64,000 bases of DNA from Gammaproteobacteria bacterium (GTDB taxonomy: Bacteria; Pseudomonadota; Gammaproteobacteria; UBA6429; Thiohalophilaceae), in contig JAOULO010000001.1 in assembly GCA_029881995.1 (NCBI GenBank), positions 1 through 64,000 of the forward strand, given 5' to 3'. The stretch's first letter is position 1, and each line of letters begins with the position of its first letter. Below are positions 11,808-38,079 of the stretch, piece by piece. The position numbers and the translations under genes were made by a program. The notes below the pieces were generated by a model. The model had not been told where the DNA came from. It did no database searches and saw only the letters and a list, made by a program, of their open reading frames with translations.

Positions 11808-11942
11808 ACCCATTATTAAATACTGATCACCATTGTACGATAAGTACACAATACATTTCACTTTGTAAGTCTGGTCCTACAGACAGTCTGAATAGCGATT
11901 GCTAGTATGCGAACAGGTATCTCCATAAAGGAATGTGTGTCG

Positions 11943-18346: not shown

Positions 18347-19534
18347 TCAGTACCATAGTGAAATATATAACTGCATCACATTTGCGGTAAATTCATATAA
18401 AGGCTCATTACCAACAAGGGTATCGTCATTTAAAGAGACTCGGGCATCTCGGAAGTCTTCATATTCAAATTTAATGTAATCATAGGCTATATTGGCGCTG
18501 GCCTTATCGAATATCCACCAGCCATTTTTGGCAAATTCGTAACTGATGGATGCCCCCAAGGTTGTGCTGTTGAAGGTACTAAGTTCCTTATCCCTGGCTC
18601 TAAAATCCAACACCTGGGTACTTTGCTCCGCATGTAAATCACTGTAAAAATCAGCGTGAGTTTGTGAATACAGGCGATAGCGTAATTCCAGTATCAGATA
18701 CTCACCGAAGGGGTGGGTATAGCCGACTTCCGAGTCATTGGCTTCGATTCCCCAGTCATCGGCAAAGACTCTCTGCTTATAATGAATAGCGGCTCGATAA
18801 GGCAGAAAATAATTCATCTTGATAGAAGCGGCTCGACTGGTTCTTGTGGCGGGATAAACTTCAGTTCTATATTGATCACCACTGCCCGAGACAAAACGAT
18901 ATTGTCGGTAAGGGTTGTTAAGGTAACCCTCATCCGTAATGGTTTCAAAATTGGCGGACAATACAAAATTTTTACTCAGAATCTGGGATAGACCTATACT
19001 ATAACTTTGTCGAATAGCCTCTTCATGAAAACCAGATTCACGTGTTCGAACACCACCGACATACTGTGTCCTAAAAATATCATCCTTTCCTTTAGCATAC
19101 CCCATAGTGATAGTAGTCAAGTCACCAAACATATCGGTGCTAATACCAAAATTATATGAACTTGCCTCATAATCATTCTCATCACTGTTTGTCATACCAA
19201 GACTCATGATGGTCTTACCATGTAATATGTCCATACCTACAGACTGTTCGACACGCTCCTCACTGTAACGACTGGCACCAAGAACCTGTACATCAATCGA
19301 AGCACTGCTGATGTTGTCGACATAATGATTGGCATAAACCGAAAAGGTCTTATCATCGCCTTTTCGAACAAGGATAGAAGGTCCAGTAATATCTATTCCG
19401 CCACCCTGATAAGAATGAGATAAAATATCGGCCCTATCCTCAGGCAATACCGCAGCACTGACGGAAAAACTCATCAGTAACAACCAAATATAAAAGCAAC
19501 AAGTTGTAAACCTAGTTACAGCCACAGCCACCAC
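18347..19534 (-). CDS. DUF3570 outer-membrane beta-barrel-like protein
   Basis: About 395 residues with a signal peptide ending 'SFSVSA'. The remainder alternates short polar/aromatic strands ('ASIKMNYFLPYRAAIHYKQR', 'YLILELRYRLYS', 'LGASISYEF') and ends 'MQLYISLWY', as expected of an outer-membrane barrel. The opening 'DRADILSHSYQGGGIDITGP' and 'VLVRKG'-type segment mark DUF3570. The open frame continues to 19582, but GTG 19534 has GAAGG eight bases upstream and gives a normal signal peptide. It overlaps the end of the DUF4266 gene by 23 bases, indicating translational coupling. DUF3570 is commonly encoded beside DUF4266, TlpA-type thioredoxins and ApbE; all four occur in this window. Confidence 0.82.
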   Translation of the reverse strand: MVAVAVTRFTTCCFYIWLLLMSFSVSAAVLPEDRADILSHSYQGGGIDITGPSILVRKGDDKTFSVYANHYVDNISSASIDVQVLGASRYSEERVEQSVGMDILHGKTIMSLGMTNSDENDYEASSYNFGISTDMFGDLTTITMGYAKGKDDIFRTQYVGGVRTRESGFHEEAIRQSYSIGLSQILSKNFVLSANFETITDEGYLNNPYRQYRFVSGSGDQYRTEVYPATRTSRAASIKMNYFLPYRAAIHYKQRVFADDWGIEANDSEVGYTHPFGEYLILELRYRLYSQTHADFYSDLHAEQSTQVLDFRARDKELSTFNSTTLGASISYEFAKNGWWIFDKASANIAYDYIKFEYEDFRDARVSLNDDTLVGNEPLYEFTANVMQLYISLWY

Positions 19535-19727
19535 CCTGACTACCTTCACCACCACGAGCCCCTTCACGGGCTTCATAAACATGTTTACGATAGGAGGATG
19601 ATATAGGGTCGCGAGAAAAACTCATAATGGGATCAGCCAGATTAGCCCTTTCGTAAGGCTGTACCCACGGCTCAACCGCACACGCAGAAAGCAAAACCAA
19701 AAGCTGAACCATCAATATCTTTTTCAT
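19512..19727 (-). CDS. DUF4266 mini-lipoprotein with Gly/Cys tail
   Basis: A 71-residue lipoprotein. The lipobox 'LLSAC' places the acylated cysteine at residue 16. A short conserved body 'EPWVQPYERANLADPIM' and 'YRKHVYEAREGARGG' is followed by a terminal 'GGGCGCN'. That ending and body identify DUF4266. Two cysteines in a glycine-rich end suggest metal, haem or thiol chemistry, and the neighbouring TlpA thioredoxin (two bases upstream) would be a natural partner. No function is established. The gene overlaps DUF3570 by 23 bases. Confidence 0.85.
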   Translation of the reverse strand: MKKILMVQLLVLLSACAVEPWVQPYERANLADPIMSFSRDPISSSYRKHVYEAREGARGGEGSQGGGCGCN

Positions 19728-19729
19728 AC

Positions 19730-20242
19730 TTATTCTCGAATCAGCGCCCGAACCTGTTTCTGGTAATCTTTTTCATAACCGGGCTTGTAGCCTTTATGTA
19801 AATAACGAAGACGACCATCCCGATCAATAATCACGGTAGTAGGCATGGCTGCGACCTTATACAACTTGCTGACCTTATTCTTGTTGTCATACAGGATTGG
19901 AAAACTCACTTTAATACTTTTAAGCAGTGTTGCAGCCTTGCTGGAGTCTTCTTCAACATTGACCCCCAGCAATGTAAACCCTAGAGGCTTATACTTTTTA
20001 TACAGGTCTTCAAGTAAAGGCATTTCCTGACGACAGGGGGCACACCATGATGCCCAGAAATTGATCATGACGACCTGGCCACGAAATTCACTGAGTTTCA
20101 GATTCTTGCCACTCATACTTTTTAAAGTGAAGTCGGGAGCTTTACCACTAAGCTGAGCAGCCTGCAGACTGCTTATGTGACTGCTCGATACAATAATGGC
20201 TAAACATAACCCAATAAAACTTTTCACATTAGTCGTTCTCAT
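19730..20242 (-). CDS. TlpA-family thiol:disulfide oxidoreductase
   Basis: A 170-residue exported thioredoxin-fold protein. The signal peptide ends near residue 29. 'APDFTLKSMSGKNLKLSEFRG' spans the family start, the redox motif is 'WCAPC' (cysteines 67 and 70), and the cis-proline loop is 'AAMPTTVIID'. It probably reduces disulfides of an exported partner, such as the cysteines of the adjacent DUF4266 lipoprotein or apocytochrome CxxCH sites in the haem proteins of the same cluster. It lies between the barrel gene (11 bases) and DUF4266 (2 bases) and is co-transcribed with them. Confidence 0.9.
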   Translation of the reverse strand: MRTTNVKSFIGLCLAIIVSSSHISSLQAAQLSGKAPDFTLKSMSGKNLKLSEFRGQVVMINFWASWCAPCRQEMPLLEDLYKKYKPLGFTLLGVNVEEDSSKAATLLKSIKVSFPILYDNKNKVSKLYKVAAMPTTVIIDRDGRLRYLHKGYKPGYEKDYQKQVRALIRE

Positions 20243-20253: not shown

Positions 20254-20913
20254 CTAGAAAAATATCGCCATCCCAATAGTAAATTCAAGATTATTAACTT
20301 TTCTCTCCCGAGCAAAGTAATCGTGCTGGAAGGTATGATTACGCATATCAATATGAACGGATAACCAGTCTGCACCGATAAAGCGATAGCCCACCCCGTA
20401 TACAAAAGTTGAGTGCTCATCACCACCGAATTCAGTAATTCCGGATCCTACTGTCAAATAGAGATCGGTATTAAAAGCCATATCGTTCCCCCAGAAGACT
20501 TCTCCTGGTAACAGGTTATAACCCAGCATAATATTGTAATAGGTTAAATCACGATCACTTTGGGTAAAAATATCACTACCACTGTACTCTTCCTGACTTG
20601 ACTTGCTGGTTGTTGTCTTACCCATAGTGGACATCAGAAAGACATCTTCTGTCAGATGAAAGGCCAGTAAAATTCCCTGTACACTATTGGCACCAAAATC
20701 TTCTACGCTCATGGTGCCGGTATAATAGCCAATCTCAAATGTTTCACTGTCAATTCCTGCTATTCTGACATCTTTACGTTGAACTTCTGGCTTGAAAACC
20801 TGTTCTTCAGCCTTCATAGGTTCAACTGCACAGGTTTGTGTTATAAACACCATGCAGATAGCCAGGGTTACAATGAACTGACCTAGAAAAAACTGCCGAC
20901 GCCCACAGTCCAT
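20254..20913 (-). CDS. outer-membrane beta-barrel protein (myxobacterial-type OMP domain)
   Basis: A 219-residue protein with an N-terminal hydrophobic export segment (about 10-30) and a barrel ending 'LEFTIGMAIFF', with the C-terminal aromatic residue typical of BAM substrates. Strands such as 'YYNIMLGYNLLPGEVF', 'TDLYLTVGSGITEFGG' and 'FVYGVGYRFIGADWLSVHID' match the small barrel domain seen in Myxococcus-type outer-membrane proteins, including Glt/Nfs barrels. The frame overlaps the end of the upstream SH3-barrel gene by 31 bases. It may form an outer-membrane complex with that protein. Start not certain, because no good ribosome binding site precedes 20913. Confidence 0.75.
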   Translation of the reverse strand: MDCGRRQFFLGQFIVTLAICMVFITQTCAVEPMKAEEQVFKPEVQRKDVRIAGIDSETFEIGYYTGTMSVEDFGANSVQGILLAFHLTEDVFLMSTMGKTTTSKSSQEEYSGSDIFTQSDRDLTYYNIMLGYNLLPGEVFWGNDMAFNTDLYLTVGSGITEFGGDEHSTFVYGVGYRFIGADWLSVHIDMRNHTFQHDYFARERKVNNLEFTIGMAIFF

Positions 20914-21620
20914 ATCGATATTTCCTCATTATCATTACTACTGGAAAAAATAACATAATCTTTATATTCAGCACGCATAAAAAAACTTCGTGACAAATAA
21001 ATGCGCACTCCTACACCAACATGTGAAGTATTATCTTCCTGATCTTTCTGCCTGACCAGCGATGAACGGGTTCTAGTCTTAATGGTACCGGTTCCCAGGC
21101 TGAAAAACGGTGATACACGCCACTCGGGAAAAGGCTGAGCAAGTAATTTGATATCAATAAGTGTACTTACCGACAGGCTACCTATCATTTGGGATAGTGA
21201 AAATTCGGTAGAGATAACAGGATTCAGTGCATAGGCACCATAAACATTAAATACATCGGCCCCCTCTGCGCTTCCCCACTGGGTGCCAACCTCCCAGTTA
21301 CGCTTAAAAAAATCATCCTGAGTATAGCCAGGCAGTACAAACTTCTCCCCATCGGGCGTCACCGTTTTAATTAATTCCCGCCGGTGTACCCAACCTTCCT
21401 GTCCTTTATCTGTTTTAACCTTAAACCAGCTTGTCTGTTGTTTTAAGACACTTATCCAGTTACCCCGGGGTAGATCGTGAAAGATTGGGTAGCCTTTTCC
21501 AGGGCCAGTGTGGATACTTATGAAAGGTTCAATCACCTTAACTTTCTGAACTGGTTCACTCCCAGTGGCTGGCTGAATCCAGCAAAATACAAAAGTTAAT
21601 AATAATATTCTGAATCTCAT
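20883..21620 (-). CDS. exported bacterial SH3 domain plus outer-membrane barrel
   Basis: About 245 residues. The signal peptide is followed by an SH3b-like domain (about 27-90) with 'ISIHTGPGKGYPIFHDLPRG' and 'WFKVKTDKGQEGWVHRREL'. A barrel domain (about 110-245) ends 'ISIWTVGVGSFF'. SH3b domains often bind peptidoglycan or peptides, so this protein could link the cell wall to the outer membrane. ATG 21620 has AGGTG eight bases upstream and is preferred over GTG 21641. It overlaps the next barrel gene by 31 bases. Confidence 0.78.
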   Translation of the reverse strand: MRFRILLLTFVFCWIQPATGSEPVQKVKVIEPFISIHTGPGKGYPIFHDLPRGNWISVLKQQTSWFKVKTDKGQEGWVHRRELIKTVTPDGEKFVLPGYTQDDFFKRNWEVGTQWGSAEGADVFNVYGAYALNPVISTEFSLSQMIGSLSVSTLIDIKLLAQPFPEWRVSPFFSLGTGTIKTRTRSSLVRQKDQEDNTSHVGVGVRIYLSRSFFMRAEYKDYVIFSSSNDNEEISIWTVGVGSFF

Positions 21621-21734
21621 GACTAAGACACCTGAACACACGTCATGAGTATACAGGTTTTAACTTCTCTTGTTGTTATCTATTGCGCAGATAATCAATG
21701 TGCATATGAATCTAAAACTGGATAGCTCAAGTCA

Positions 21735-24656
21735 TTAATTTTCTGGCACCATGAAGGGGTTGTTGTAATATTGACCACCCGCATCCAGCCACTCTGAAAT
21801 TAATTTAAGCTCGGCAGGAGACAGTGCTCCTGTGTGATTAAATTTATTGTTTGGATCGACAGGTTCACCCATATCGAGTACTACAGTACTGTCCTGCTCC
21901 ATGGCATTAAAGAACCTGGTACTACTAATTGCACCGTTGGTTGATAACACGGCCTGAGGGCCCGGATCGACAGACGTAAGGATATCAATTAGCACAGGAT
22001 CAAAAATTTCCATTTCATTCTCATCCAGGATGGGATTACCTTCTTCATCTTCCCTACGCACTAATATTTCTGCCTGTACATTCTCAAGTGTCGTCCCATC
22101 AAATGACTTCTGTTGAACATCCTGGACAAACAACTCCTGATAGGACTTGAGACGATTCTGATTATCCCTAGGGTCGATCTGCAGACTTTCAGCGCTATCA
22201 TCAAGGTTAATCTGAGTACCGGTAGTTATCCCATTGACGTTGTCAGGAACAGTCGGAATTGCAGAAATCAGTGGATTGTCAGTGTATGGTTCAGGTGGAG
22301 CAACATTACCATCCTTATCCCAGGGAGCATGACAACCGTTGTTGGTGCAAGTGGCGGCAACATCATCAACGTTCTTTCGCCCGGTTTTACGCCACAGAGG
22401 GGCAATATGATCAATATAATTGATAGTTACCCGGCAATTCGATGACCAGGCAACATCGCAACCTGCAGCATAGGGTTTTAGATCACCAACGGTATAAATA
22501 TCACTATACAGATATTCAAAAGACGGTTCCTTGCTAAATACAGAGATAGTATCAAGACTGTCGATATTTTTAGTCCAGATATCCTGATAGGTCAGGTTCA
22601 GTGAAGGATTGACTCCAGGACATTTTTTACCATCACAATGTCGTATTCTTGTCTCTGCCATGGTTTCACCAACGTTGGCAATCATATCCGTTTCCATGCA
22701 TTCGTAGTTACGCTCTATCGTGGCTCCTGAGTTAATGCTGGCTACGGCTTTTTTATTTCCATGGGTAACAGTTGAATTACGTAGGTGACAACCATTGCAC
22801 TCCAGGGTTTCGCCAGACTGTACCTGTAGCCAGGTAACATGGCGTGGTGTTGTGCCATCCTGAGCACTTGCTATATTGATTCGCCTGCCCTTGCTATCCA
22901 GAATTTGAAAACTAAATGGAGTATCTGCGGGTACTGTTACCTTAACTGAACCATCAGGTTCAATCGGGGCATACCCCAGAATATCGACAAAACTGTGAAC
23001 ATTTTCATTGCTGACACCCCGGGCGATATTACGTCGGCCATTGCTCATCACCTGAGTACTTGGATTGGTTAAAGGTTTTATAATACGAAGGAAACGGGCC
23101 CTGCTACTCCCAATAACACCATAGTCAGCCATTTCCTGTGGAGATACAGGTGGTCGTTCATCCAGTGAGATATCAGCCATGTCAGTCACCGGAATATCTG
23201 AACAGGATACTGATGGTTTTCGGATCATGGCACCCAGTGCATTGAATGTCCCATCAAAATCATAAACACTTCGAATATGTAACACACCAGTCTTTCCATC
23301 GCCTTCCACCGCTTCCAGTACTGGTGGGTATGGCCTGTTCTGCGCAGCAACAACATCGGTAATCATTATGTCTTCGGTAGGATTAATAATTGGTAGCTTG
23401 GTATTGTCTCCATGATTAAGGACAAACAAGCCATAAAACGGTGGCGCTGCTTCCAGACCTTCAATTGAACCAAGCTGTGTACATGAGACATATTTCCCAT
23501 CCACTTCTACACGACACTGAGTCCAACTAACCAGACTACGGTTAGAACCATCAGTGAGTGGATATACCGAATGGTATCGACCACCCGCTGAAGGACCGAC
23601 GATGGTACTAACACTTCCCCCTGTTAAGGATTCCTGCCCATTGCCAGACAGACCTTGATTGTCTTTATTAGGTCTTCCGTAATCGACAAAATAGTTGGTA
23701 TCAATTAGCACCATGTCACCACCACCAAACGTGCCTTCGAAAGGACGGGCAATGGTAAGCAACCTGCCATCGTGATATTCCCGTGGTTGCATAAACTGGA
23801 TATCTAAAAGGTTAGTCCCAGTTTCATGGCTGTTAGATCCATACATTAACTGCAAATCAGTACCATCTGGATTGATGGAATAGAGATTGATTTCATTATT
23901 TCCGAGCCGGTTCCTGTCCCAACGGCTAAAGACAATCTTACCATCACTTCGAACGATGGGATCCATATCCCGCTTAGGGCTAAAGGTCAGTTGCTGAATA
24001 TCTGTTCCATCCGCCTCCATAACATGCAACATCAGGGCTGGAATGTCTTCCCTATCCACTTCGGTCGTGAATCCCGTTTTGCCTTCATCGGTGAGTACTT
24101 CTTTGGAACGTTGTTGTCGGGTAGAGGTAAATACAATGCGACCATCAGGTAAATAGTAGGGTGCGACATCATCACCCTTTTCTGAAAACTCATCCAGCTC
24201 AATGACTCGCCGAAGATTGCCAGTAGGAATATGGTATTCCCAGATATTCCAGGTGGGCTGATCTTCAGGGTCAGCATCTTCAATCTCAGGCTTACGCATG
24301 GCAAAAATCAATTTGGTGCCATCGTATGAGGCTTCTACATCCTTAACATCCCCCATGCTATTTACACTGGTCTCCCCATTGCCCAGATCACGGGTGATGG
24401 AGTGGGTCACATTGACTTCACCGGCCTGAGAAGAGGCATAAGCTCGAACAAACAAATCTGCCCCAGGATTAAAAGCAATATTATCCCTGGCATCGGGATA
24501 AGTAGGATTTTGTTCCTCATCGACAGGAATCGGGCGTTTAACATAGGCAATAGGAAAAGGCTCAACCAGTGGATCCTGGCCTTTACTGCCTCCCCCACAG
24601 GCGGATAACAGTATCAGCGCAACCATAACGACCAGTCGTTTGTGTATTACTTCCAT
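21735..24656 (-). CDS. HzsA-like lipoprotein with PD40 propeller and c-type haem motifs
   Basis: A 973-residue lipoprotein (lipobox 'LLSAC', then Gly-rich linker). Residues about 100-480 contain TolB/PD40-like propeller repeats ('YYLPDGRIVFTSTRQQR', 'IVRSDGKIVFSRWDRNR'). The C-terminal half resembles the middle domain of hydrazine-synthase alpha subunit-like proteins. It holds a haem-c motif 'CNGCH' near residue 619 and a looser C-x4-C-H ('CTNNGCH') near 770. 'SGAT' near residue 642 resembles the acceptor of FMN attachment by ApbE, but the preceding aspartate is missing. It is divergent from the plus-strand haem protein genes and likely works with them at the cell surface. HzsA-like proteins are widespread and need not make hydrazine. 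Confidence 0.78.
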   Translation of the reverse strand: MEVIHKRLVVMVALILLSACGGGSKGQDPLVEPFPIAYVKRPIPVDEEQNPTYPDARDNIAFNPGADLFVRAYASSQAGEVNVTHSITRDLGNGETSVNSMGDVKDVEASYDGTKLIFAMRKPEIEDADPEDQPTWNIWEYHIPTGNLRRVIELDEFSEKGDDVAPYYLPDGRIVFTSTRQQRSKEVLTDEGKTGFTTEVDREDIPALMLHVMEADGTDIQQLTFSPKRDMDPIVRSDGKIVFSRWDRNRLGNNEINLYSINPDGTDLQLMYGSNSHETGTNLLDIQFMQPREYHDGRLLTIARPFEGTFGGGDMVLIDTNYFVDYGRPNKDNQGLSGNGQESLTGGSVSTIVGPSAGGRYHSVYPLTDGSNRSLVSWTQCRVEVDGKYVSCTQLGSIEGLEAAPPFYGLFVLNHGDNTKLPIINPTEDIMITDVVAAQNRPYPPVLEAVEGDGKTGVLHIRSVYDFDGTFNALGAMIRKPSVSCSDIPVTDMADISLDERPPVSPQEMADYGVIGSSRARFLRIIKPLTNPSTQVMSNGRRNIARGVSNENVHSFVDILGYAPIEPDGSVKVTVPADTPFSFQILDSKGRRINIASAQDGTTPRHVTWLQVQSGETLECNGCHLRNSTVTHGNKKAVASINSGATIERNYECMETDMIANVGETMAETRIRHCDGKKCPGVNPSLNLTYQDIWTKNIDSLDTISVFSKEPSFEYLYSDIYTVGDLKPYAAGCDVAWSSNCRVTINYIDHIAPLWRKTGRKNVDDVAATCTNNGCHAPWDKDGNVAPPEPYTDNPLISAIPTVPDNVNGITTGTQINLDDSAESLQIDPRDNQNRLKSYQELFVQDVQQKSFDGTTLENVQAEILVRREDEEGNPILDENEMEIFDPVLIDILTSVDPGPQAVLSTNGAISSTRFFNAMEQDSTVVLDMGEPVDPNNKFNHTGALSPAELKLISEWLDAGGQYYNNPFMVPEN

Positions 24657-25049
24657 TCGATTTCCCTACTTATACCTTACATTTAACATGGCTTTATTTT
24701 ATTAAATCTTATTTTACCAGACCATTGGCCCTAGTTTTCGAAACCGTATTCACCCGATCCAAATATCATCCGTGCTTAATATCTATAACAGTTGAAATTG
24801 ATTATGGCTTCGCCACTGTACCTGATCTGTGATGGCCATCACGGGTACAAAACCACTTATCCGTAGAATATGGCCAACAGTCGGAAAAGTCTCTAACTTT
24901 AAAAGAAGCGGTAATAATTATTCGAATGCAGGTGACAAAATCGATAGAATTAACCGACAAACAGCATTTTAAGAATCAGACAGTATTTAAGATTACACAT
25001 CTTCAGAACTGTCTTTACCGAAATATAAATACAACGAGGGATCGAATAG
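24657..25049. promoter_or_regulatory. 393-base divergent control region of the redox cluster
   Basis: The gap lies between the HzsA-like gene (minus) and the DUF1585-like gene (plus). It is AT-rich on both sides and contains the large palindrome listed separately at 24817-24849. GAGGG nine bases before 25050 is the ribosome binding site of the plus-strand gene. No small gene is visible. Confidence 0.55.
24817..24849. promoter_or_regulatory. CRP-like palindromic operator
   Basis: The centre GTGATGGCCATCAC (24829-24842) is a perfect 14-base palindrome. The frame TGTGA-N6-TCACg (24828-24843) fits the CRP consensus TGTGA-N6-TCACA except for the last base. Outer arms TGTACC (24817-24822) and GGTACA (24844-24849) are also inverted copies. 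It sits 172 bases before the minus-strand gene and about 200 before the plus-strand gene. Confidence 0.55.
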
Positions 25050-26375
25050 ATGCATAACATGGCCAACCTCACCCCAACAGGCCCAGCAGCAAAATCCAGG
25101 CGGATCACTCCCAATAAGCTTTTAAGCTATGGCCTTGTCTGTATTATGATCCTGATGGCTCAGTCACCTGCCTTTGCTGGAAAGCGTGAACAGGCCAAAC
25201 GCATTCATGATCTGCTGGTTGGTGCAGCACCATCTAACACTTTGCTCGATTCCATGGCCACTGCAGTTGGTGATGCTGCCGATCCTCCCATAGCCAATTT
25301 AATTAATGCTGCAAATCTCGCATTAGCAGATGCTGAATCAAAAAAAGTTTTTGCCAATGTCACCCTGAAAAACTTTGCCAGCCCATGGACCAATGAGGCA
25401 CAAAGTGTATTTGAACCGTTAAATGATTACTCGGCAACCGTTGCCGGGATGATTATCAATGACGATGATTTCAGAGAAGTCCTGTTTGGTAACTATATTT
25501 ACACAGGTGGCAACAGTGCTGGTACTCCATACTCGCCAAACAATAATGCCCACTATATTGCTCTAGAAAATCAGAATATCGATCTTTCAACATCACTGGA
25601 AAAAACAACCCAAACGATTGCAGCTCCAGCAGGAATTATGACCACCCGTGCTGCAGCCCGTGCTTACTTTATAGATGGTACAAATAGAGCCATGTTACGG
25701 TTTACTTTCCTAAATCACCTTTGTTATGACATGGAACAATTAAAAGACAATACCCGGCCAATGGATCGAATTCGTCAGGACGTATCACGCAGTCCTGGCG
25801 GTGATAGCCGATTGTTTATGAACAACTGTGGTGCCTGTCATGCTGGGATGGATCCACTGGCACAGGCCTATGCCCGTTATCAATGGGAATATACTGATCA
25901 GGAAGATAATGGTGTACTTGCCTATACCGCAGATAGTATCCAACCCAAATATCACATTAATAGCAATAACTTCAAAGGTGGCTATGTAACAGAGGATGAC
26001 AACTGGACCAATTACTGGCGTAGAGGATCAAATGTCTGGCTGGGCTGGGGGCAGAACACGCCTCATCATGCCGACTATGCCCTTATCGCGTTAGACACAA
26101 CAAATGATAGTCCAGAAGTGAACGTCAGCCATGGCACTGGAGCTAAATCTCTGGGTGTTGAACTGGCTCACAGCGATGCATTTGCCCGTTGTCAGGTGAA
26201 GAAAGTTTTTAAAACAGTATGTATGCGCAACCCACAGAATAATACTCAAAGTGGTGAAGACGACACTAATGCCTTTAATAACATGGTAGCTAATTTTAAA
26301 GGTGCATATGGATACCGTCTGAAAAATGTATTTGTCGAGGCAGCTGCCTACTGCAGTGGTCCTAGTACACTCTAA
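25050..26375 (+). CDS. exported haem-c protein, DUF1585/DUF1588-like
   Basis: A 441-residue protein with a signal peptide ending 'QSPAFA' near residue 43. A single haem-c motif 'CGACH' lies near residue 259, within 'SPGGDSRLFMNNCGACHAGM'. The region before it, 'TTRAAARAYFIDGTNRAMLR' then 'LCYDMEQLKD', is like the DUF1592/1588/1585 group of planctomycete-type cytochrome-associated proteins. It heads a plus-strand operon with a LamG/haem lipoprotein, a Tat protein and ApbE. GAGGG at nine bases supports the start. Role: likely an exported electron-transfer or substrate-processing subunit, inferred. Confidence 0.72.
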   Translation: MHNMANLTPTGPAAKSRRITPNKLLSYGLVCIMILMAQSPAFAGKREQAKRIHDLLVGAAPSNTLLDSMATAVGDAADPPIANLINAANLALADAESKKVFANVTLKNFASPWTNEAQSVFEPLNDYSATVAGMIINDDDFREVLFGNYIYTGGNSAGTPYSPNNNAHYIALENQNIDLSTSLEKTTQTIAAPAGIMTTRAAARAYFIDGTNRAMLRFTFLNHLCYDMEQLKDNTRPMDRIRQDVSRSPGGDSRLFMNNCGACHAGMDPLAQAYARYQWEYTDQEDNGVLAYTADSIQPKYHINSNNFKGGYVTEDDNWTNYWRRGSNVWLGWGQNTPHHADYALIALDTTNDSPEVNVSHGTGAKSLGVELAHSDAFARCQVKKVFKTVCMRNPQNNTQSGEDDTNAFNNMVANFKGAYGYRLKNVFVEAAAYCSGPSTL

Positions 26376-26421
26376 CCACAAAAATGATTATTGAACCTGT
26401 ACCAGAACATGGGACAACACA

Positions 26422-29202
26422 ATGAATAAAATCAAGGATAACGTACAACCTGACGGTTCAAACTACCTGAGTTTTCTCTCGCTAAAAAATCTCTTTTTCT
26501 GTATCAGTCTGGTGCTATTTATCTCAGCCTGTGGTGGTGGTGAAGACAGTCAGCGTGATCCTGGAGGAAATAAACAGGAGCTTGGAGATAGTACAGCTAC
26601 AGCGAAGGACAATGATGTTTTTCAATTTCAAACCCATGTGTGGAAGCCTCTGCGTGACTCCGATAAAGAATGTGGACGTTGCCATAGATCACAGGCTCAA
26701 ACTAAAGGTAAAACATTTTTCCTGGATGATGATATTAATCGTGCATACGATCAGTTTATCGAAAACGGCTTGATGGAAAAATCCAAAGATCCGGAAACAA
26801 ATATTGAAACGGTTAAATCGAGTTCAAAGTTAATTGTTCGCGTTGGCCCTTCATTAAAACACTGGTGCTGGAGTACACATGTTGATTGTCAGGAAGAAAT
26901 GACCACCATGCTTAATAGAATGATCAATGGTTATACAAGAGGTGTTGAAAGTAGAGAAACCGTACTAACACCTATTAAACCTGAAAATCAAAAAGCACTT
27001 GGTGACAGTCTACTTTTCCCTAAGGAATTACCAAGTTCTCCAAGCGGCATTTATGACGGCGTCCACAACTTGCTAACTCAATATTGTTCGAACTGTCATC
27101 GACAAGATGGACCACAACAACAACAACTACCCTATTTTGCAACTGCCAACAAACAGGATTCCTATAATGCTGCCAAGGTCAAAATAGATCTGAACAACCC
27201 TGAAAATTCCGAACTGGTTCAACGACTGAAACTGGAACACAACTGCTGGGATGTCTGTGATGATGATGCAGAGGAAATGCGACTTGCCATAATTAAGCTG
27301 GCAGCAGACATTAAAAGTCTGGGCATCAAACTGGATGATGAAAATATTATCATCAGCAAGGCCCTGGTTTTACTGGAAGACGGTGTACAGGACACTGGTG
27401 GAAACAGGTATGAAGCCAATCAGATAGCCCTGTATGAATTCCAGAATGGTTCCGGTAGCACAGCCTTTGATTCCAGCGGTATCCAGCCATCGCTTAATTT
27501 GACACTTTTTGGCAACGAAGGAATCGACTATCGCTGGCTTAGTAATTGGGGCATTGAAATCCTGACACCCCTGGGTCGGGCACAGGGCAGCACCTCAGAT
27601 AGCAAGAAACTACATAACCGCATTAAACTATCTGGCCAGTACTCCATTGAAGCATGGGTCATTCCAGGAAACGTAACACAGATGGATTCCAATATTGTTT
27701 CCTACTCTTTTGGTGAAGAGAAGAAAAACTTTACTCTTGGCCAAAACATGTATAACTACGAGTCCTATCACCGAAGCAGCACAACAGGCGCAGGTGATGA
27801 TGCACTGTCTACTCCAAATGGTGATGAAGTACTACAGGCGAGCCTTCAACATGTTGTCGTGACTTATGATTCCTTTAGTGGACGAAAGATATATGTTAAT
27901 GGTGAGCTAATCAATGTCAGTGAACCTGATGACCAGGGTGGAAACCTGCTGAACTGGGACTCATCATTTGCCCTGGTGTTGGGAAATGATACTGATACAG
28001 ATCGGCCATGGTTGGGTATTTTACGCATGGTTGCTATTCACGATGCTGCCTTGAGTCAGGAACAGGTCAAATTTAATTTTGATGCGGAAGTTGGTCAGAA
28101 ATACCTGATGCCATTTGCGGTCAGTCACATTGATGGTATGCCAGACGAAAGTTATATCGTGTTTGAAGTCAGTCAGTATGACGAATTCAGTTACCTGTTC
28201 AGGGCTCCCCGTTACATAAATCTCGGTGGTGTTGCTCCAGCAAACTTTGGAACTGTACCTCTAAAAGGTATGCGAATTGGTATGAATGGTGATGAGGTTG
28301 CCGTTGGACAGGCATATTCCAATGTCGACATTGGTAACCTGGCAACCAGTTACGTCGAAGGTGAAGGTAAATCACTTTCTAATATCGATACCATCGTGGA
28401 ACTTCAAAATGGCTCAGATATTGATGAGTTTTTCCTGACTTTCGAAAAACTCGGTGGAGATGAACGTAATCAGGATGTGGCAGCCTATGATGAAAAAGAT
28501 GCAAACCCAACCGATATTCCCGCCTTGCGAACAGTAAATAACGACACTATGACACCACGAATTGGTGTCCGTACCTTTGATGAAATCAACGCCACCATGG
28601 CGAAAATGCTGAAAATCAATGACTGGGCAGGAATTCTTGACATCAATAATAGCAACCCCGAACTGAACGAAGGGAAGTTAGGCACCTTTGTTCAGTATCG
28701 CCAGCAATTCCCTGCCGGAGAGAGTATTGAAGGCTTTGCCACATCACACCAGATGGCGATCTCGCAGCTTGCCATTACTTACTGCAAAGTTCGGATAGAT
28801 CGTGATATCAATAAGACACATGACATCTTCTTCACGGGTTTTGATTTTGGCCAGAATCCTTCTGTTGCCTTTGCCAATGAAGCTGCTGTTGATACATTTA
28901 TTGCCCCTCTATTAACTGAGGTAGTAAATGTTTCAGAAACTGCTATTGAGCTGACTACGCAACCTGAAGTTTCATTCATTCGTAATGAGATGTACAAACT
29001 AATACTTCATGGGGATACCTTTACTAATCCCGATGACTATCCGACCCCTGATAGTTTGGGTCATACCGAGAATATTAATATAGAGAGAGTTGCATTGATC
29101 TCAGCAGCCTGCGATGGCACATGTACCTCAGCTCGTACAAGATTAATTGCTATATCAGCATGCTCGGCTGTGCTGGGCAGCGCCATCATGTTGATTCAAT
29201 AG
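26422..29202 (+). CDS. lipoprotein with two CxxCH motifs and a LamG domain
   Basis: A 926-residue protein. The lipobox is 'FISAC', followed by a Gly-rich linker (about residue 37). Haem-c motifs are 'CGRCH' near residue 84 and 'CSNCH' near 221. A concanavalin-like LamG domain (about 355-555) includes 'YSIEAWVIPG', 'HVVVTYDSFSGRKIYVNGEL' and 'LVLGNDTDTDRPWLGILRMV'. A further C-terminal domain of about 350 residues is unassigned. The whole protein resembles planctomycete-style surface haem proteins that combine haem and sugar/protein-binding modules. It is flanked by genes 46 bases upstream and 31 bases downstream, all plus strand. Confidence 0.75.
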   Translation: MNKIKDNVQPDGSNYLSFLSLKNLFFCISLVLFISACGGGEDSQRDPGGNKQELGDSTATAKDNDVFQFQTHVWKPLRDSDKECGRCHRSQAQTKGKTFFLDDDINRAYDQFIENGLMEKSKDPETNIETVKSSSKLIVRVGPSLKHWCWSTHVDCQEEMTTMLNRMINGYTRGVESRETVLTPIKPENQKALGDSLLFPKELPSSPSGIYDGVHNLLTQYCSNCHRQDGPQQQQLPYFATANKQDSYNAAKVKIDLNNPENSELVQRLKLEHNCWDVCDDDAEEMRLAIIKLAADIKSLGIKLDDENIIISKALVLLEDGVQDTGGNRYEANQIALYEFQNGSGSTAFDSSGIQPSLNLTLFGNEGIDYRWLSNWGIEILTPLGRAQGSTSDSKKLHNRIKLSGQYSIEAWVIPGNVTQMDSNIVSYSFGEEKKNFTLGQNMYNYESYHRSSTTGAGDDALSTPNGDEVLQASLQHVVVTYDSFSGRKIYVNGELINVSEPDDQGGNLLNWDSSFALVLGNDTDTDRPWLGILRMVAIHDAALSQEQVKFNFDAEVGQKYLMPFAVSHIDGMPDESYIVFEVSQYDEFSYLFRAPRYINLGGVAPANFGTVPLKGMRIGMNGDEVAVGQAYSNVDIGNLATSYVEGEGKSLSNIDTIVELQNGSDIDEFFLTFEKLGGDERNQDVAAYDEKDANPTDIPALRTVNNDTMTPRIGVRTFDEINATMAKMLKINDWAGILDINNSNPELNEGKLGTFVQYRQQFPAGESIEGFATSHQMAISQLAITYCKVRIDRDINKTHDIFFTGFDFGQNPSVAFANEAAVDTFIAPLLTEVVNVSETAIELTTQPEVSFIRNEMYKLILHGDTFTNPDDYPTPDSLGHTENINIERVALISAACDGTCTSARTRLIAISACSAVLGSAIMLIQ

Positions 29203-29233
29203 ATAACGGATAAAAGTACCTGAGGACAAGAGA

Positions 29234-30853
29234 ATGGGTAAAAAACGCAAGTCACTACACCCTAATGAGCCATTAAGACACAACGATCATCCAAGGCCTG
29301 TCAGCCGACGAGATTTTCTTCGCCAGGGATTTATTACCGGCAGCGGCGTTGTTATGGGTGGCGGTATTTTCAGCCTGTTTTCTAATCCCCATGAAGCCTA
29401 TGCTGCGGTTTCTAATATATCTGGTGATATTCATAAGATGGCTGATATTGCGGGCTGCCCCGTTGGTGGGGGAGCGGGTACCAAACTACCCTTTATCTGT
29501 TTTGATCTTGCCGGTGGTGCAAGCCTGGCCGGGGCCAATGTCCTAGCTGGTGGTCCTGGTGGGCAAAAAGACTTTATCAGCACCGCAGGTTATAGCAAGT
29601 TCGGAATTCCTGATACGATGTTACCCACTGCAGCTGACGAAAATATCAATAGTGAACTCGGTCTCCTGTTTCACGAGCAAAGTACCATGAAAAACGGGAT
29701 CGTTGAAAAGGCCGGCTCAGCCCTGAACAGGATCAATGGCGTGTTAATTCCTGCCCGCTCAGACAACGATACAGGTAATAACCCACATAACCCCATGTTT
29801 GCCATTGCCAGGGCTTTTTTAAATGATGATCAAAGTGGCAAAGTCCTTTCACTTGTTGGTTCACGCAATAGTGACTCAGGGGGTAATTCTACTTTTCCTC
29901 CCAGTTTTATGAACCCAGAACTCATACCTACCAAGATCGATCGACCCTCCGATATCACTGGCATGCTGGACACCGGTAGCCTCACCGGCATTCTTGACAA
30001 GGATGATCTCAAAGTTGTCATGGAATCCGTTGCACGCCTGAGTCATCAGAAACTCAGCAAAGTTAGTACTGGCACAATTGTTAGCCGTGATGAACTCATC
30101 GAGAACCTGGTGAAATGCGGATATTTAAGTGCCGCTGATATTGCCGATCGCTTTGCCGATGTCAAAGTGAATCCTGCTGAAGATGAGGCCATCGTCGGTG
30201 ACACCGGTATCTTTAGCCAGGGAGAGTGGGATGGCCCTGATAGAAATGAATTCCGTAAGACTGCCTCAGTCATGAAAATGGTACTAGATGGCTATGCAGG
30301 TGCCGGTACGATTACTATGGGTGGCTATGATTACCACACAGGTGAACGAGTCACAGGTGATGATCGTGACGAACGAGCCGGTCGTTGTATCGGAGCCTGT
30401 CTGAACTACGCAGCCCGACGAGGTGTACCATTAATGATCTATGTCTGCAGTGATGGATCTGTTTCCAGTAATGGCCGTCCCGACCCCAATGCAGACGGTA
30501 AAGGTGAATGGACCACTGATAACTCTTCAACAGCAGCTTCATTTATCCTGTTATTTGATCCCCTGGCTGGTGGCCGGCCACAGATACTAACGAATACCGT
30601 ACCAAATCCAAGCCTAGGCCAGATTGGCTGGTTCTCTCGGGATGCTTCGGTGGTACGTAACTCCAGCCCGGCAGCTGATAATGTCCTGTCCCTAGTCAAT
30701 ACAGTTTTACTGAACTACATGTCCGCTAGTGGAATGATTTCTTCTTCTAATACATCAGCATTTACTCAAATCTTTACTGATCTGAGCATTTCACATGGCT
30801 TGGGAAATAACTTCGATCGCCTGATGGCATTCGGGCCTGTTAACTCACCTTAA
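29234..30853 (+). CDS. Tat-exported DUF1501-like protein
   Basis: A 539-residue protein with a twin-arginine signal: 'SRRDFLRQG' at about residues 24-32, then a hydrophobic segment and cleavage near 'EAYA'. The body contains 'FICFDLAGGASLAGANVLAG', 'NPHNPMFAIA' and 'MGGYDYHTGERVTGDDRDE'. It resembles DUF1501-type proteins, relatives of the alkaline phosphatase/sulfatase fold often paired with DUF1585/1592 proteins. Tat export implies folding, perhaps with a cofactor, in the cytoplasm. GAGG upstream of ATG 29234 supports the start. Function unknown; distant family match only. Confidence 0.65.
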   Translation: MGKKRKSLHPNEPLRHNDHPRPVSRRDFLRQGFITGSGVVMGGGIFSLFSNPHEAYAAVSNISGDIHKMADIAGCPVGGGAGTKLPFICFDLAGGASLAGANVLAGGPGGQKDFISTAGYSKFGIPDTMLPTAADENINSELGLLFHEQSTMKNGIVEKAGSALNRINGVLIPARSDNDTGNNPHNPMFAIARAFLNDDQSGKVLSLVGSRNSDSGGNSTFPPSFMNPELIPTKIDRPSDITGMLDTGSLTGILDKDDLKVVMESVARLSHQKLSKVSTGTIVSRDELIENLVKCGYLSAADIADRFADVKVNPAEDEAIVGDTGIFSQGEWDGPDRNEFRKTASVMKMVLDGYAGAGTITMGGYDYHTGERVTGDDRDERAGRCIGACLNYAARRGVPLMIYVCSDGSVSSNGRPDPNADGKGEWTTDNSSTAASFILLFDPLAGGRPQILTNTVPNPSLGQIGWFSRDASVVRNSSPAADNVLSLVNTVLLNYMSASGMISSSNTSAFTQIFTDLSISHGLGNNFDRLMAFGPVNSP

Positions 30854-30898: not shown

Positions 30899-30962
30899 TT
30901 CAGCATTATGTATTATTTGTGCTACCTTCTGATTGTTGGTCATAACATCAGGTAAATACCCT

Positions 30963-31973
30963 TTGTATCACTCATTCACTCCACTCCTTTCACTGTCCAT
31001 AATATTCAGTATATTACCCGGTCTTGCATCAGCCACCTGGTATAAGGAAGAACTGGCCATTATGGGAACGTCCGTCAGTGTTGAACTCTGGCATGACAAA
31101 CGCCTCCAGGCTGAAAAATGTATTTCTCTGGTAATGAATAATATGCGACGTATTGATCAGACCATGAGCCCCTATAAGCCTGATAGTGAACTAAGTCGAC
31201 TAAATAAAAAGGCAGTGAGTAAACCATTTAAAGCCAGTAAAGAACTTTTCCAACTCATTAGCCAGGCCAATAAAATATCGGACATGACCAGGGGAAAATT
31301 TGATATCACGTATGCCAGCACAGGCTATTTATACGATTATCGAAATGCTGTACGACCCGATAGTAAAAAAATAGATGTCCTGCTTCCTGCGATTAATTAC
31401 AGGCACATCAAGCTCACTCCTCGGAAAAGACTCGTAAAGTTTAATCATCCCAATGTAAAAATTGACCTTGGTGGTATTGCTAAGGGCCATGCCGTCGACC
31501 AGGCCATCATGATCCTCAAGCGGTGTGGGATTTCCCAGGCCCTAGTCAGTGCCGGAGGAGACAGCCGCATTGTTGGAGATAAACAGGGTTTACCCTGGAT
31601 GACCGGGATTCGCCATCCTCGAGATAAAAATGGTTTTGCCGTAGTGCTGCCACTGACCGATACCGCCATCTCCACATCAGGCGACTATGAACGGTTTTTT
31701 ATCGAAAATGGCAAACGCTACCATCATATTCTCAATCCCAGCTCAGGCCAGCCAGCGGATAAATCACAAAGTGTTACCATTTTGGGAAAAGATGCGACCA
31801 CCACTGATGCCCTGTCCACGGCGGTGTTTGTCATGGGGTCTGAGACAGGCCTAGCTTTTATTGAATCCCTGCCCGGGATTGAAGCCATCATCATCGATAG
31901 CAAAGGCAAAATTCATTACACAAGTGGCCTTTTAAAACCTAAGGATAATAACAATACATCCAAACCTGATTGA
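30963..31973 (+). CDS. apbE: FAD:protein FMN transferase (ApbE)
   Basis: About 336 residues. ApbE uses FAD to attach FMN covalently to Ser/Thr of exported proteins in the periplasm. Family landmarks are 'MGTSVSVELW', 'IDQTMSPYKPDSELSRLN', 'KIDLGGIAKGHAVDQ', 'ISTSGDYERFF', 'HHILNPSSGQPAD' and 'TTDALSTAVFVMG' (metal/FAD site). A signal peptide precedes the domain. No ATG opens the frame. TTG 30963 has AGG ten bases upstream and yields a clean signal peptide; TTG 30933 just after an in-frame TGA is the longest alternative. It lies after the redox-protein genes and probably flavinylates one of them or a DUF4266/DUF3570 partner. Confidence 0.9.
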   Translation: MYHSFTPLLSLSIIFSILPGLASATWYKEELAIMGTSVSVELWHDKRLQAEKCISLVMNNMRRIDQTMSPYKPDSELSRLNKKAVSKPFKASKELFQLISQANKISDMTRGKFDITYASTGYLYDYRNAVRPDSKKIDVLLPAINYRHIKLTPRKRLVKFNHPNVKIDLGGIAKGHAVDQAIMILKRCGISQALVSAGGDSRIVGDKQGLPWMTGIRHPRDKNGFAVVLPLTDTAISTSGDYERFFIENGKRYHHILNPSSGQPADKSQSVTILGKDATTTDALSTAVFVMGSETGLAFIESLPGIEAIIIDSKGKIHYTSGLLKPKDNNNTSKPD

Positions 31974-32244
31974 AATGGTTGAAATGTGACCAACCACACG
32001 GCATAGACTCCGCCAAGCCCCTACATTTAGCTATATAAATGGCCAATACAATCGCTAGTTTGATTGAATAAGTCTAATCCTTATTTGATTAGTGGTTATC
32101 CGCTCGGCCCACAAGCCGGATTTCACAATCATTTGACGACTCTCAATTAACTCCCTCTTTTGTAGTAAGTTTTTGGCCTGATCGCTGTCGTTGATGGTGG
32201 ATAACCATTAAAATAAGGTAGTTTTGAAGGAGCAGGATCTCGAC

Positions 32245-32790
32245 ATGAATTACAAAACCATTTTCATCTCATTTTTACTGGCGTTTGCACTAGTAGCATT
32301 AGGTCTGGCAGGTCAGGTAAGAGCGGAACAACAAAACAATAAGCTTTCGGCCCTGGGCAATAAGGTAGAAGAATTAAAAAAAGAGATTCTCGAATTGAAT
32401 CGAGACCTGTTTATCCTGGAAGAAGAGTTACTGTTTCCTGCAAATACTCAATTTACTGTTTTCCTATCTATGGATAAGGGCCAATTGTTTACCCTCGACT
32501 CGGTTCAAATCAGACTCAATGATAAAATTGTTGCCAATCACCTTTATACCGAACAGGAACTCAAGGCCCTGCTTCGAGGTGGTGTTCAGCGTGTTTATAT
32601 GGGGAACTTACCCAGTGGCCGTCATGAGCTGATAGCCTATTTCAATGGTGTTGGTCCTAAAGGACGTGATTTTAAACGTGGAACCACTATTGCTCTGGAA
32701 AAGTCGAGTTCACCCAAGTTTGTTGAATTAAAAATTACTGACGATACCAGCAAACAACAACCCAAGTTTAATGTGAAGGTCTGGGAGTAA
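32245..32790 (+). CDS. exported coiled-coil protein heading the TPR/Tol-like operon
   Basis: About 181 residues with a signal peptide (to 'QVRA', about residue 27), a coiled coil of about 35 residues ('NKVEELKKEILELNRDLFIL'), and a compact beta-rich domain ('FTLDSVQIRLNDKIVANHLY', 'RVYMGNLPSGRHELIAYFNG'). I do not know the family by name. It heads a collinear operon of TPR, TolQ/TolR-like and AgmX genes and is therefore probably a periplasmic part of that machine. ATG 32245 with CAGGA seven bases upstream is preferred over TTG 32224. Confidence 0.7.
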   Translation: MNYKTIFISFLLAFALVALGLAGQVRAEQQNNKLSALGNKVEELKKEILELNRDLFILEEELLFPANTQFTVFLSMDKGQLFTLDSVQIRLNDKIVANHLYTEQELKALLRGGVQRVYMGNLPSGRHELIAYFNGVGPKGRDFKRGTTIALEKSSSPKFVELKITDDTSKQQPKFNVKVWE

Positions 32791-32801: not shown

Positions 32802-34670
32802 ATGAAAACCAATAGCAAACAAGGACGTCTTAGCCTGTTTGTCCTGTTTCTATCAGGCTATTTTTCTATCACCTCTTTGAGTTTAGCTCAGGACGAAGAG
32901 CGACTGGAAATTCGTAACTTGCACTTTGGCGAGACCCTGTACCACTTTTATCAAAAGCAATATTTCACAGCAATTTCAGATCTTCTTGTTGCCCAGAAGA
33001 AACACCCTATCCAGACTCAGGGTGAGAACCCAAATTTATTGCTTGGTGGCCTATATCTCTCTTACAACATGACTCAACGGGCTGGAAATATTTTTACCAG
33101 TCTGACTCAAAAAGATATATCAAAAAGACTCCAGAGCAGTGCATGGTATTACCTGGCTCGAATCGCTTATCAAAATAGCGAACTGGAAAAGGCCAATCTA
33201 GCCGTTAACAAGATTGGGGTTCACCTGCCGTTTCGTTATAACGATGAGCTGCAACACTTACAGGGCAATATCTTACTCAAACAGAAAAACTATAAAGATG
33301 CCATCAAGATTCTCAGTCAATATTCTGATTCAACAGACTGGTCTCACTATACAAAATTCAATCTTGCCATCGCCCTGATCATGGCCGATGAAAATGAAAA
33401 AGGCACTGAATTACTTGAAGAAGTCGCCGAACTGGATGCCCAAGATATAGAACAAATCGCACTACGGGACAAAGCAAATCTGGCACTGGGTTATGCGGCT
33501 TTAAAAGCTAAAGATAACGAAACTGCAGCAGACTATTTCAGACAAATCCGTTTATCCGGTTCCCAGTCCAACAAAGCACTATTAGGCATCGGCTGGGCTT
33601 TTCACAAAGAAGGCAAGCTCAAACGTTCACTGGTACCCTGGGTTGAGTTAAAAAATCGCTCTTCGAAAGACCCTGCTGTTCAGGAAGCTCTGTTAACCAT
33701 TCCCCATGCCCTTGAAGGGCTAAATGCCAAGGAACAGGCCCTGGCATATTATAATGATGCAATAAACTCCTATAACAAAGAACTAGCAACACTAAAATCT
33801 GTCATCAATTCCGTCAAACAAGGTGAATTCATCAAATCATTACGGGTTCTGCATTTACATCAGCAAAAAGAGAATCACCTCCATTTCACAACACTACCTG
33901 ACTCAACCGCAACTCCTTATCTGCAGAGTTTAATCGCAGGCCAGGAGTTTCAATCCATATTGAAGAATTATCGTGATTTGTTGTATATGAAAAATATTCT
34001 TACTCATTGGAATAACCAGATACCTTCTTATAGGTTGATGTTGAATGAGAGAGAAAAAGCTTACGATTCTCGTATTCCTAAAATTAGTGCATTCATGAAA
34101 AATACCCAACAGACTAAGTTGTTAAACCGATACAGAAAGCTAAAAAGCCGCTTAGAAGCAATAGAAAAAAATCATGTTGTATTTGCCCTGGCCAGTGAAC
34201 AGGAAATGAACCTGCTTAATAAACTTTCAAAAATTAAAAAATTGTTGGATAAAGTCCCTCCTGGTCAGCTTGAGGAACAACATGATCAATATCGCTTGTT
34301 TAAAGGTATTTTGTACTGGCAAGTTGCTACTGACTATACCCCACGTTACTGGCAGGTAAAAAAACGCCTTCTTGAAATAGAAAAGGCCTTTAGTAAGCTT
34401 GAAAAGAAAAAAACCTCATCACTTACTACTCTGGTAAAAACTCCTGAATATTTCAAAGACTTTGCCAATAACATTAATAACAAACAAAGAAAAATAAAAA
34501 ACCTGAATCAACAAATATCAAATGTCATAAAATACCAGGAAAGTCTGATCAACCGAATTGCCATTGATGAATTAACAAAGCAGAAGCATCTCATCGAAAA
34601 TTACCATATTCGGGCCAGCTATTCTCTGACTCGTCTTTATGACAGCCTGGCTGTGGTCGAGAAAAAGTAA
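32802..34670 (+). CDS. exported TPR-repeat protein
   Basis: A 622-residue protein with a signal peptide ending near 'SLSLA'. Tandem TPR-like helical pairs cover about residues 40-320 ('SAWYYLARIAYQNSELEKAN', 'ANLALGYAALKAKDNETAAD', 'ALLGIGWAFHKEGKLKRSLV'). A Lys/Glu-rich coiled-coil region follows (about 400-610). The stop is directly followed by the ATG of the next gene. In Myxococcus-type Glt/Nfs systems, exported TPR proteins link inner-membrane motor and outer-membrane parts. This is the role I infer here. Confidence 0.75.
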   Translation: MKTNSKQGRLSLFVLFLSGYFSITSLSLAQDEERLEIRNLHFGETLYHFYQKQYFTAISDLLVAQKKHPIQTQGENPNLLLGGLYLSYNMTQRAGNIFTSLTQKDISKRLQSSAWYYLARIAYQNSELEKANLAVNKIGVHLPFRYNDELQHLQGNILLKQKNYKDAIKILSQYSDSTDWSHYTKFNLAIALIMADENEKGTELLEEVAELDAQDIEQIALRDKANLALGYAALKAKDNETAADYFRQIRLSGSQSNKALLGIGWAFHKEGKLKRSLVPWVELKNRSSKDPAVQEALLTIPHALEGLNAKEQALAYYNDAINSYNKELATLKSVINSVKQGEFIKSLRVLHLHQQKENHLHFTTLPDSTATPYLQSLIAGQEFQSILKNYRDLLYMKNILTHWNNQIPSYRLMLNEREKAYDSRIPKISAFMKNTQQTKLLNRYRKLKSRLEAIEKNHVVFALASEQEMNLLNKLSKIKKLLDKVPPGQLEEQHDQYRLFKGILYWQVATDYTPRYWQVKKRLLEIEKAFSKLEKKKTSSLTTLVKTPEYFKDFANNINNKQRKIKNLNQQISNVIKYQESLINRIAIDELTKQKHLIENYHIRASYSLTRLYDSLAVVEKK

Positions 34671-37493: not shown

Positions 37494-38079
37494 ACTCCAG
37501 ATTACACTCTACATTCTTGGCATAAGCCTGCTTTCTGGTTGTGTTTCATTAGATAGTGCTACTCAACCCGAGGTAGCTGAGCATATTAAACTTGCTTACC
37601 AAACAGCACTTATTTCTATGAAAAAAGGAAAATACAAACTCGCGATTAAACAGTTTAATAAAATCATTAAACAACAACCTGGACTGGCAGGACCACATAC
37701 CAATCTCGGCATCATTTACCTAAAGAAAAAATCTCTGGATAAGGCTAGACAGTCCTTAGAAAAAGCCATTGAACTCAACAAGCAAAGTACTATTGCCTAT
37801 AACCATCTCGGTATCGTATATCGTAACATGGGACGTTTTGATGATGCTGAGCAAGCATATTTAAAAGCCATTGAGATCAATACCAGTTATGATTATGCTC
37901 ATCTCAATTTGGGTATACTTTATGACCTCTACAAATCTGATGGCAACAAAGCCATTAACCATTACCAACAGTATTTAAAATTAAGCAACAAACCCGATAA
38001 AATGGTTGAAAAGTGGATTGTCGATATCCAGAGGCAGAATAAAACTGCTGCAAGTAACGCAAAGGAGACACCAGGATGA
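37474..38079 (+). CDS. small TPR lipoprotein
   Basis: About 201 residues. The lipobox is 'LLSGC' (cysteine near residue 23), then three to four canonical TPRs: 'AYQTALISMKKGKYKLAIKQ', 'THLGIIYLKKKSLDKA'-type, 'AYNHLGIVYRNMGRFDDAEQ' and 'AHLNLGILYDLYKSDGNKA'. PilF-like arrangement, but the operon points to the Tol-like machine. ATG 37474 (rather than 37447) starts the signal peptide. Its end overlaps the next gene by four bases. Confidence 0.8.
   Translation: MLKTFIKLQITLYILGISLLSGCVSLDSATQPEVAEHIKLAYQTALISMKKGKYKLAIKQFNKIIKQQPGLAGPHTNLGIIYLKKKSLDKARQSLEKAIELNKQSTIAYNHLGIVYRNMGRFDDAEQAYLKAIEINTSYDYAHLNLGILYDLYKSDGNKAINHYQQYLKLSNKPDKMVEKWIVDIQRQNKTAASNAKETPG

Follow-up and report, generated by a model that had tools for sequence, protein, structure and literature searches.

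Exported haem proteins, a flavinylation cluster and Glt/Agl-like genes in one conserved gammaproteobacterial locus: a possible redox-equipped cell-surface machine

The Glt/Agl core complex, encoded by gltC, D, E and G together with aglR, Q and S, was described in Gammaproteobacteria by Luciano et al. in 2011 with its function unknown, and bacteria outside the Deltaproteobacteria were found to have one additional gene in it (PMC3169522). DUF3570, DUF4266, a thioredoxin-like protein and ApbE form a described flavinylation cluster, and the DUF3570 family has been shown to be an ApbE flavinylation substrate (PMC8238504). Relatives of both stand together with four genes for exported proteins at positions 18347–41057 of the window, the 64,000-nucleotide stretch analysed here (contig JAOULO010000001.1 of assembly GCA_029881995.1, from a gammaproteobacterium of the Thiohalophilaceae). 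Minus-strand transcription runs through genes for an HzsA-like protein, an SH3/outer-membrane protein (OMP), OMP_myx_plus, TlpA, DUF4266 and DUF3570. The plus strand carries genes for a DUF1585-like, a LamG and a Tat protein (exported by twin-arginine translocation), together referred to as the trio, and then ApbE, the envelope protein g188, three tetratricopeptide repeat (TPR) proteins, TolQ, two TolR and a TonB-like AgmX protein. Judged by gene order and gene content, the trio, HzsA, the flavin cluster and the Glt/Agl-like core are very likely to be associated. The whole block may well be one conserved gammaproteobacterial system, a redox-equipped, proton-driven cell-surface machine, a reading held with moderate confidence.

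The best 80 of 289 related loci were kept for comparison, with gene content and order counted in the 52 that span 17 kb or more. The trio is present in all 52, HzsA in 47, the DUF3570–DUF4266–TlpA genes in 45, as is the larger set with the OMP and SH3 genes, and an ApbE match in 35. The exact order of the window from DUF3570 to AgmX is found in 13; the remaining loci have a different arrangement or are truncated where the flank ends. The usual operon starts with HzsA and continues through SH3/OMP, OMP, TlpA, DUF4266, DUF3570, g188, three TPR proteins, TolQ, TolR, TolR and AgmX. In a Marinobacter locus this series is a single run on one strand, and Ferrimonas matches it, except that one of the TPR proteins falls below the threshold of the search. 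Five further loci (L116–L118, L121, L122) hold the part from HzsA to g188 and the TPR genes. In L121 the trio is missing but HzsA still stands with flavin and Tol genes, and genome G146 likewise shows HzsA in this company and no trio. Five Rheinheimera/Arsukibacterium loci have the trio beside a copy of the Glt core and no HzsA there, with HzsA elsewhere in those genomes; in the two that were read (L116, L117) the distant HzsA heads an operon of flavin, g188 and TPR genes.

The phyletic profile agrees with the gene order. The trio was found in 21 of the 140 gammaproteobacterial genomes sampled, and 19 of these also have HzsA. The Glt marker g188 is found in 20 of these 21 compared with 12 of the 119 others (Fisher p = 5e-15) and DUF4266 in 20 of 21 compared with 13 of 119 (p = 1.3e-14). 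Kinship among the 140 genomes makes these p-values look stronger than they are; gene order provides evidence that does not depend on them. An alternative is that the redox genes are unrelated neighbours of the Glt-like machine, sharing a locus by chance or co-transfer. In its favour, trio and machine are unlinked in genome G078, and 12 trio-less genomes have the machine marker. Such an explanation is nevertheless distinctly unlikely, as the linkage survives several different gene orders, the phyletic profiles are near-identical, and HzsA, when away from the trio, sits beside flavin or Glt genes.

The four exported proteins were singled out in an earlier reading of the window, the original prediction, as products of genes facing each other across one control region and carrying at least four c-type haem motifs. 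The coordinates and the divergent arrangement are confirmed. The HzsA-like gene (21735–24656, minus strand) is separated by a 393-bp intergenic region (24657–25049) from the plus-strand genes for the DUF1585/DUF1588-like monohaem protein (25050–26375), the LamG lipoprotein (26422–29202) and the Tat protein (29234–30853). A consensus scan of the intergenic region found no sigma-70-like promoter and no terminator. Export signals are present in each protein: lipoboxes in the HzsA-like (LSAC) and LamG (ISAC) proteins, a twin-arginine motif (SRRDFL) in the Tat protein with both arginines invariant in relatives, and a Sec-type N-terminus, judged by eye, in the DUF1585-like protein.

The haem motifs number five, four CXXCH and one CX4CH. 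The HzsA-like protein has C620NGCH624 and C770TNNGCH776, the latter of the CX4CH type, the DUF1585-like protein C260GACH264, and the LamG protein C84GRCH88 and C222SNCH226. No such motif occurs in the Tat protein, so that three rather than four of the exported proteins are haem proteins. Shuffled versions of the four proteins yield 0.0085 CXXCH motifs compared with the four observed. A loss of these motifs in close homologues would have spoken against the original observation, which stands: both HzsA sites are kept in 60/60 relatives (the second as CXXCH in 56), the DUF1585-like site in 69/69 and both LamG sites in 72/72. CcmF is encoded in the genome, hence c-type haem attachment is possible.

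Downstream of ApbE, all on the plus strand, lie the genes of the Glt/Agl-like side. The first encodes g188 (32224–32790), a 188-residue envelope protein with a conserved alignment and no family over cut-off, which serves as a marker of the gammaproteobacterial Glt-like core and may be the additional gene reported by Luciano et al. It is followed by a 622-residue TPR protein (32802–34670; PF13432 and synteny) and two TPR lipoproteins, one of 940 residues (34671–37493; TPR models and a lipobox) and one of 210 (37447–38079; TPR models, below the GltE and PilW cutoffs). The score against the GltE equivalog is only 49.6 of 225 bits. A TolQ/ExbB/MotA-type proton channel subunit, AglR-like (38512–39150; PF01618, 106.3 bits), precedes two AglQ/S-like TolR/ExbD subunits (39156–39644 and 39654–40160; PF02472, 41.4 and 61.8 bits). 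The series ends with a TonB-like transducer (40167–41057) whose C-terminal domain is of the AgmX/PglI (GltG) type (NF033768, 75.1 bits, cutoff 40); it reaches 55.8 of 650 bits on the GltG equivalog NF033760.

By their sequence matches, the eight genes from g188 to AgmX correspond in content to the Glt/Agl core complex: TolQ, two TolR, a TonB-like protein with an AgmX/GltG C-terminus, three TPR proteins and one extra gene, in a single region (PMC3169522). The likeness is one of gene content, and gliding is not implied. In contrast to the described complex, the genes here are tied to haem and flavin proteins, which go unmentioned in the main text of Luciano et al. Directly after AgmX, a plus-strand gene (41229–43967) encodes a 912-residue protein with two cyclic-nucleotide-monophosphate (cNMP)-binding domains and a rhodanese domain. 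About 2 kb beyond it, on the minus strand (45749–46681), is a gene for a forkhead-associated (FHA) and adenylate/guanylate cyclase protein. These two proteins may be a cyclic-nucleotide control pair for the system.

The flavinylation genes other than that for ApbE lie on the minus strand, beside two genes for outer-membrane barrel proteins. The minus-strand products are DUF3570, a probable outer-membrane barrel (18347–19582; PF12094, 1.4e-37, 129.9 bits, cutoff 25), the 71-residue lipoprotein DUF4266 with a C-terminal CGCN (CXC) motif (19512–19727; PF14086, 1.5e-24, 87.1 bits, cutoff 27), a TlpA/ResA-like periplasmic thiol-disulfide protein (19730–20242; PF00578, 8e-32), an outer-membrane beta-barrel of the OMP_myx_plus family (20254–20913; TIGR04565, 130.5 bits, cutoff 60) and a protein combining an SH3 domain with an outer-membrane beta-barrel (20883–21641; PF08239, PF13505). 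ApbE itself, an FAD:protein FMN transferase, is encoded at 30933–31973 on the plus strand (PF02424, 9.6e-82). C67 and C70 of TlpA are invariant in 56/56 relatives. All four components of the described flavinylation cluster are present, adjacent or near to one another (PMC8238504). The differences are that the block has no DsbD, that the thioredoxin is of the TlpA/AhpC-TSA type and not PF13899, that the strict flavinylation motif is absent, and that the cluster is joined to HzsA and a Tol-type machine.

A redox module formed by the four exported proteins with TlpA and ApbE had been proposed and is supported, but the conserved system of which it makes up one end is larger and includes the flavin cluster and the Glt/Agl-like machine. 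The gene inventory behind that proposal had overlooked DUF4266, DUF3570 and the link to the downstream Tol and TPR genes. Outside the cluster, a minus-strand gene (3154–4725) weakly matches TIGR02604, the N-terminal domain of Planctomycetes-Verrucomicrobia-Chlamydiae (PVC)-type haem-binding CxxCH proteins (59.8 of 122 bits), and two large overlapping plus-strand open reading frames of 497 and 644 residues (11907–15276) have no Pfam or NCBIfam match.

The readings of the three haem proteins as HzsA-like, DUF1585-like and LamG proteins are supported. The HzsA-like protein is a dihaem lipoprotein with a beta-propeller, an HZS-alpha middle domain (PF18582, 51.1 bits, cutoff 26.6) containing a CxxCH, and a C-terminal cytochrome c, an architecture shared with the alpha subunit of hydrazine synthase (5c2v) and its non-anammox homologues (PMC12758564). 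A profile of 30 HzsA-like relatives matches 5c2v at 1.5e-14, collinear from propeller through middle domain to cytochrome. The site of the haem alpha-II type (C770/C775/H776) is kept in 60/60 relatives, and H941, kept in 59/60, aligns to residue 745 of chain A, which corresponds to the distal His772 (a 27-residue offset). On sequence grounds the homology of this protein to hydrazine synthase alpha is genuine, if distant.

This collinear homology, extending to the second haem and the His772 position, is what favours a nitrogen-cycle enzyme, in which the HzsA-like subunit would belong to a hydrazine synthase or a close functional analogue. Such a role is extremely improbable. Tyr591 is the proximal ligand of haem alpha-I in hydrazine synthase (PMC12607021), and none of the 60 HzsA-like relatives has a tyrosine in the 12 positions that follow the first CxxCH. 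Hagglund et al. reported the same tyrosine loss in Planctomycetota and Desulfobacterota homologues that retain the beta-gamma partner (PMC12758564), whereas among the proteins of this locus there is no cytochrome-peroxidase-type or YVTN-type gene for beta and gamma subunits. The protein also scores 39.1 bits against the 800-bit cut-off of the hydrazine synthase equivalog NF052339. Its hosts are Gammaproteobacteria in which the gene is joined to Tol/Glt genes, and some of them, Marinobacter and Alteromonas for instance, are marine heterotrophs known in culture. The HzsA-like protein is therefore not a hydrazine synthase, as both the tyrosine of the catalytic haem site and the beta/gamma partners are missing. 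When plasmids were searched with the HzsA-like protein, the only matches were HzsA-like proteins of Bacteroidota fused to SUMF1 and a single Salinibacter match. The Bacteroidota plasmids NZ_AP025309.1 and OY725999.1 have genes for proteins similar to the propeller and middle domain of HzsA; where annotated, these proteins are assigned to the SUMF1/EgtB/PvdO family.

The DUF1585-like protein of the window has no Pfam match itself, but members of its family match DUF1585 (40/46) and DUF1588 (28/46) at E ≤ 1, with a best value of 1.5e-6. No PSCyt2 (DUF1549) protein is encoded in its own genome, a fold search of PDB with its model gave no credible match, and plasmid searches with it returned no match. 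The LamG lipoprotein (PF13385, 4.9e-20) has a duplicated N-terminal haem domain, seen in the family consensus as two copies of CxxCH ... HNCW ... C, which is a candidate for a new cytochrome domain. This N-terminal part (26422–27350, plus strand) carries an invariant HNCW-type motif (HxCW) and has no credible Pfam family.

The Tat protein matched no Pfam family. Its AlphaFold model (predicted local distance difference test 78.7, predicted template modelling score 0.82) has a predicted alkaline-phosphatase (AlkP)-superfamily fold of the sulfatase/iPGM/AlkP-like kind. VIA-align returned Z scores of up to 11.9 over 251 residues at a root-mean-square deviation of 4.6, with all 50 listed rows in the AlkP superfamily; the Foldseek match is weak, with E only 4e-3. 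Conserved residues of the Tat protein include D91, H147, H185, D366, H368 and D407. Planctomycete-type DUF1585/DUF1588 cytochrome proteins pair with Tat-exported DUF1501/DUF1552 proteins. The locus shares with such pairs an exported haem protein adjoining a Tat-exported protein of predicted AlkP fold. It differs in that the Tat protein has no Pfam family, the DUF1585 match is found in relatives only, and there is an extra LamG dihaem lipoprotein.

Exported proteins of the HZS-alpha, DUF1585/1588 and AlkP-like kinds are familiar mainly from Planctomycetota (PMC12758564), consistent with the earlier suggestion that the genes are more planctomycete-type than gammaproteobacterial and might have been transferred from Planctomycetes or Myxococcota. 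This suggestion is not supported. By record title the best 80 of the 289 loci are gammaproteobacterial with few exceptions, namely one mislabelled 'Halobacteria' metagenome-assembled genome (MAG) and a few vaguely titled records. In trees of all four proteins the named genera are monophyletic wherever sampled, and the four distance matrices mirror one another (r = 0.77–0.89). The GC content of the block is normal, at 0.447 compared with 0.448 outside. A search of 299 genomes drawn from the phylum found the DUF1585-like family in seven, each belonging to the same class as the window. Nothing points to a recent import of the cluster, and a planctomycete or myxococcal surface gene group acquired horizontally in recent times is highly improbable, disfavoured by neighbours, trees, GC content and the phylum-level search alike. 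The contig labelled as a Halobacteria archaeon MAG (L041) carries a gammaproteobacterial cluster and is probably mis-binned.

What the sequences show is common inheritance, export signals, conservation of the haem and thiol residues, and a full set of Tol-type motor genes. The preferred reading, a redox-equipped, proton-driven surface machine, would work as follows. The TolQR motor, acting through AgmX and the TPR lipoproteins, would drive or position the outer-membrane barrels. The thiols of TlpA and DUF4266, the covalent flavin of DUF3570 and the five c-haems would together act as a redox relay, situated at the outer membrane and on the surface; such a relay of thiols, flavin and haems is considered likely. 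The LamG protein and the AlkP-fold protein would bind and act on a surface substrate, and together suggest a carbohydrate or a sulfated or phosphorylated ligand. Both Agl-Glt and Agl-Nfs deal with polysaccharides outside the cell (PMC3858216). Because of this and the ligand hint, polymer-directed redox chemistry is the leading reading, in which a polysaccharide or its anchor would be oxidised or cross-linked while the machine handles it. By analogy, a surface polymer is the leading guess for the substrate, albeit a tentative one.

The main rival is an outer-membrane electron conduit. Flavins and haems would pass respiratory or reductive electrons to metals or another acceptor outside the cell, and the part of the Tol-like machine would be limited to assembling or positioning the conduit. 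The five invariant haem sites, DUF3570/DUF4266/ApbE, the three probable barrels and the two lipoproteins would suit a conduit, and a VIT1 iron transporter occurs in some DUF3570 clusters (PMC8238504). However, the haems are few and spread over large binding-type proteins, the block has no multihaem cytochrome chain and no CymA-like donor, and a wire would not need LamG or AlkP-fold proteins. On balance a conduit is unlikely, though the strongest of the alternatives.

Several points weigh against the preferred reading. The trio-less genomes with g188 indicate that the machine can work without the trio, and the trio of G078 lies far from the remaining genes. Genome G069 has the trio and a shortened HzsA (a 630-residue frame) without g188 and DUF4266. 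DUF3570 of the window has SSAS and LGAS in place of the strict [S/T]GA[S/T] flavinylation motif, with SGAS in some relatives. The block encodes no inner-membrane electron donor, neither a quinol dehydrogenase nor DsbD. The argument for a polymer substrate is one of analogy with Glt/Nfs, LamG and a fold, and the predicted AlkP-fold Tat protein may be catalytically dead. G069 is a complete genome, and its locus (L120, G069:C1:1988000-2007900) is possibly a remnant or a minimal form of the system.

Literature searches for a link between Glt and flavin or haem proteins found no paper making it; the parts are known already, and their combination was not found in the literature searched. The block is widespread and unstudied, and is a lead on the role of a gliding-related machine in non-gliding bacteria. 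With a flavin cluster and a Glt core in one operon headed by an HzsA-like gene, alongside the haem/LamG/AlkP-fold trio, the questions raised by both can be tested together, and culturable hosts are available in Marinobacter, Microbulbifer and Ferrimonas. A bolder, rather doubtful proposal is that a Glt/Agl-family motor of the TolQR type exerts mechanical drive on, or gates, the surface redox chemistry, coupling proton-motive force, outer-membrane movement and haem-flavin oxidoreductase activity in one trans-envelope machine. If true, the ancestral role of the gammaproteobacterial Glt core would lie in such motor-coupled redox chemistry, not in gliding. The locus suggests a role for this core that can be tested.

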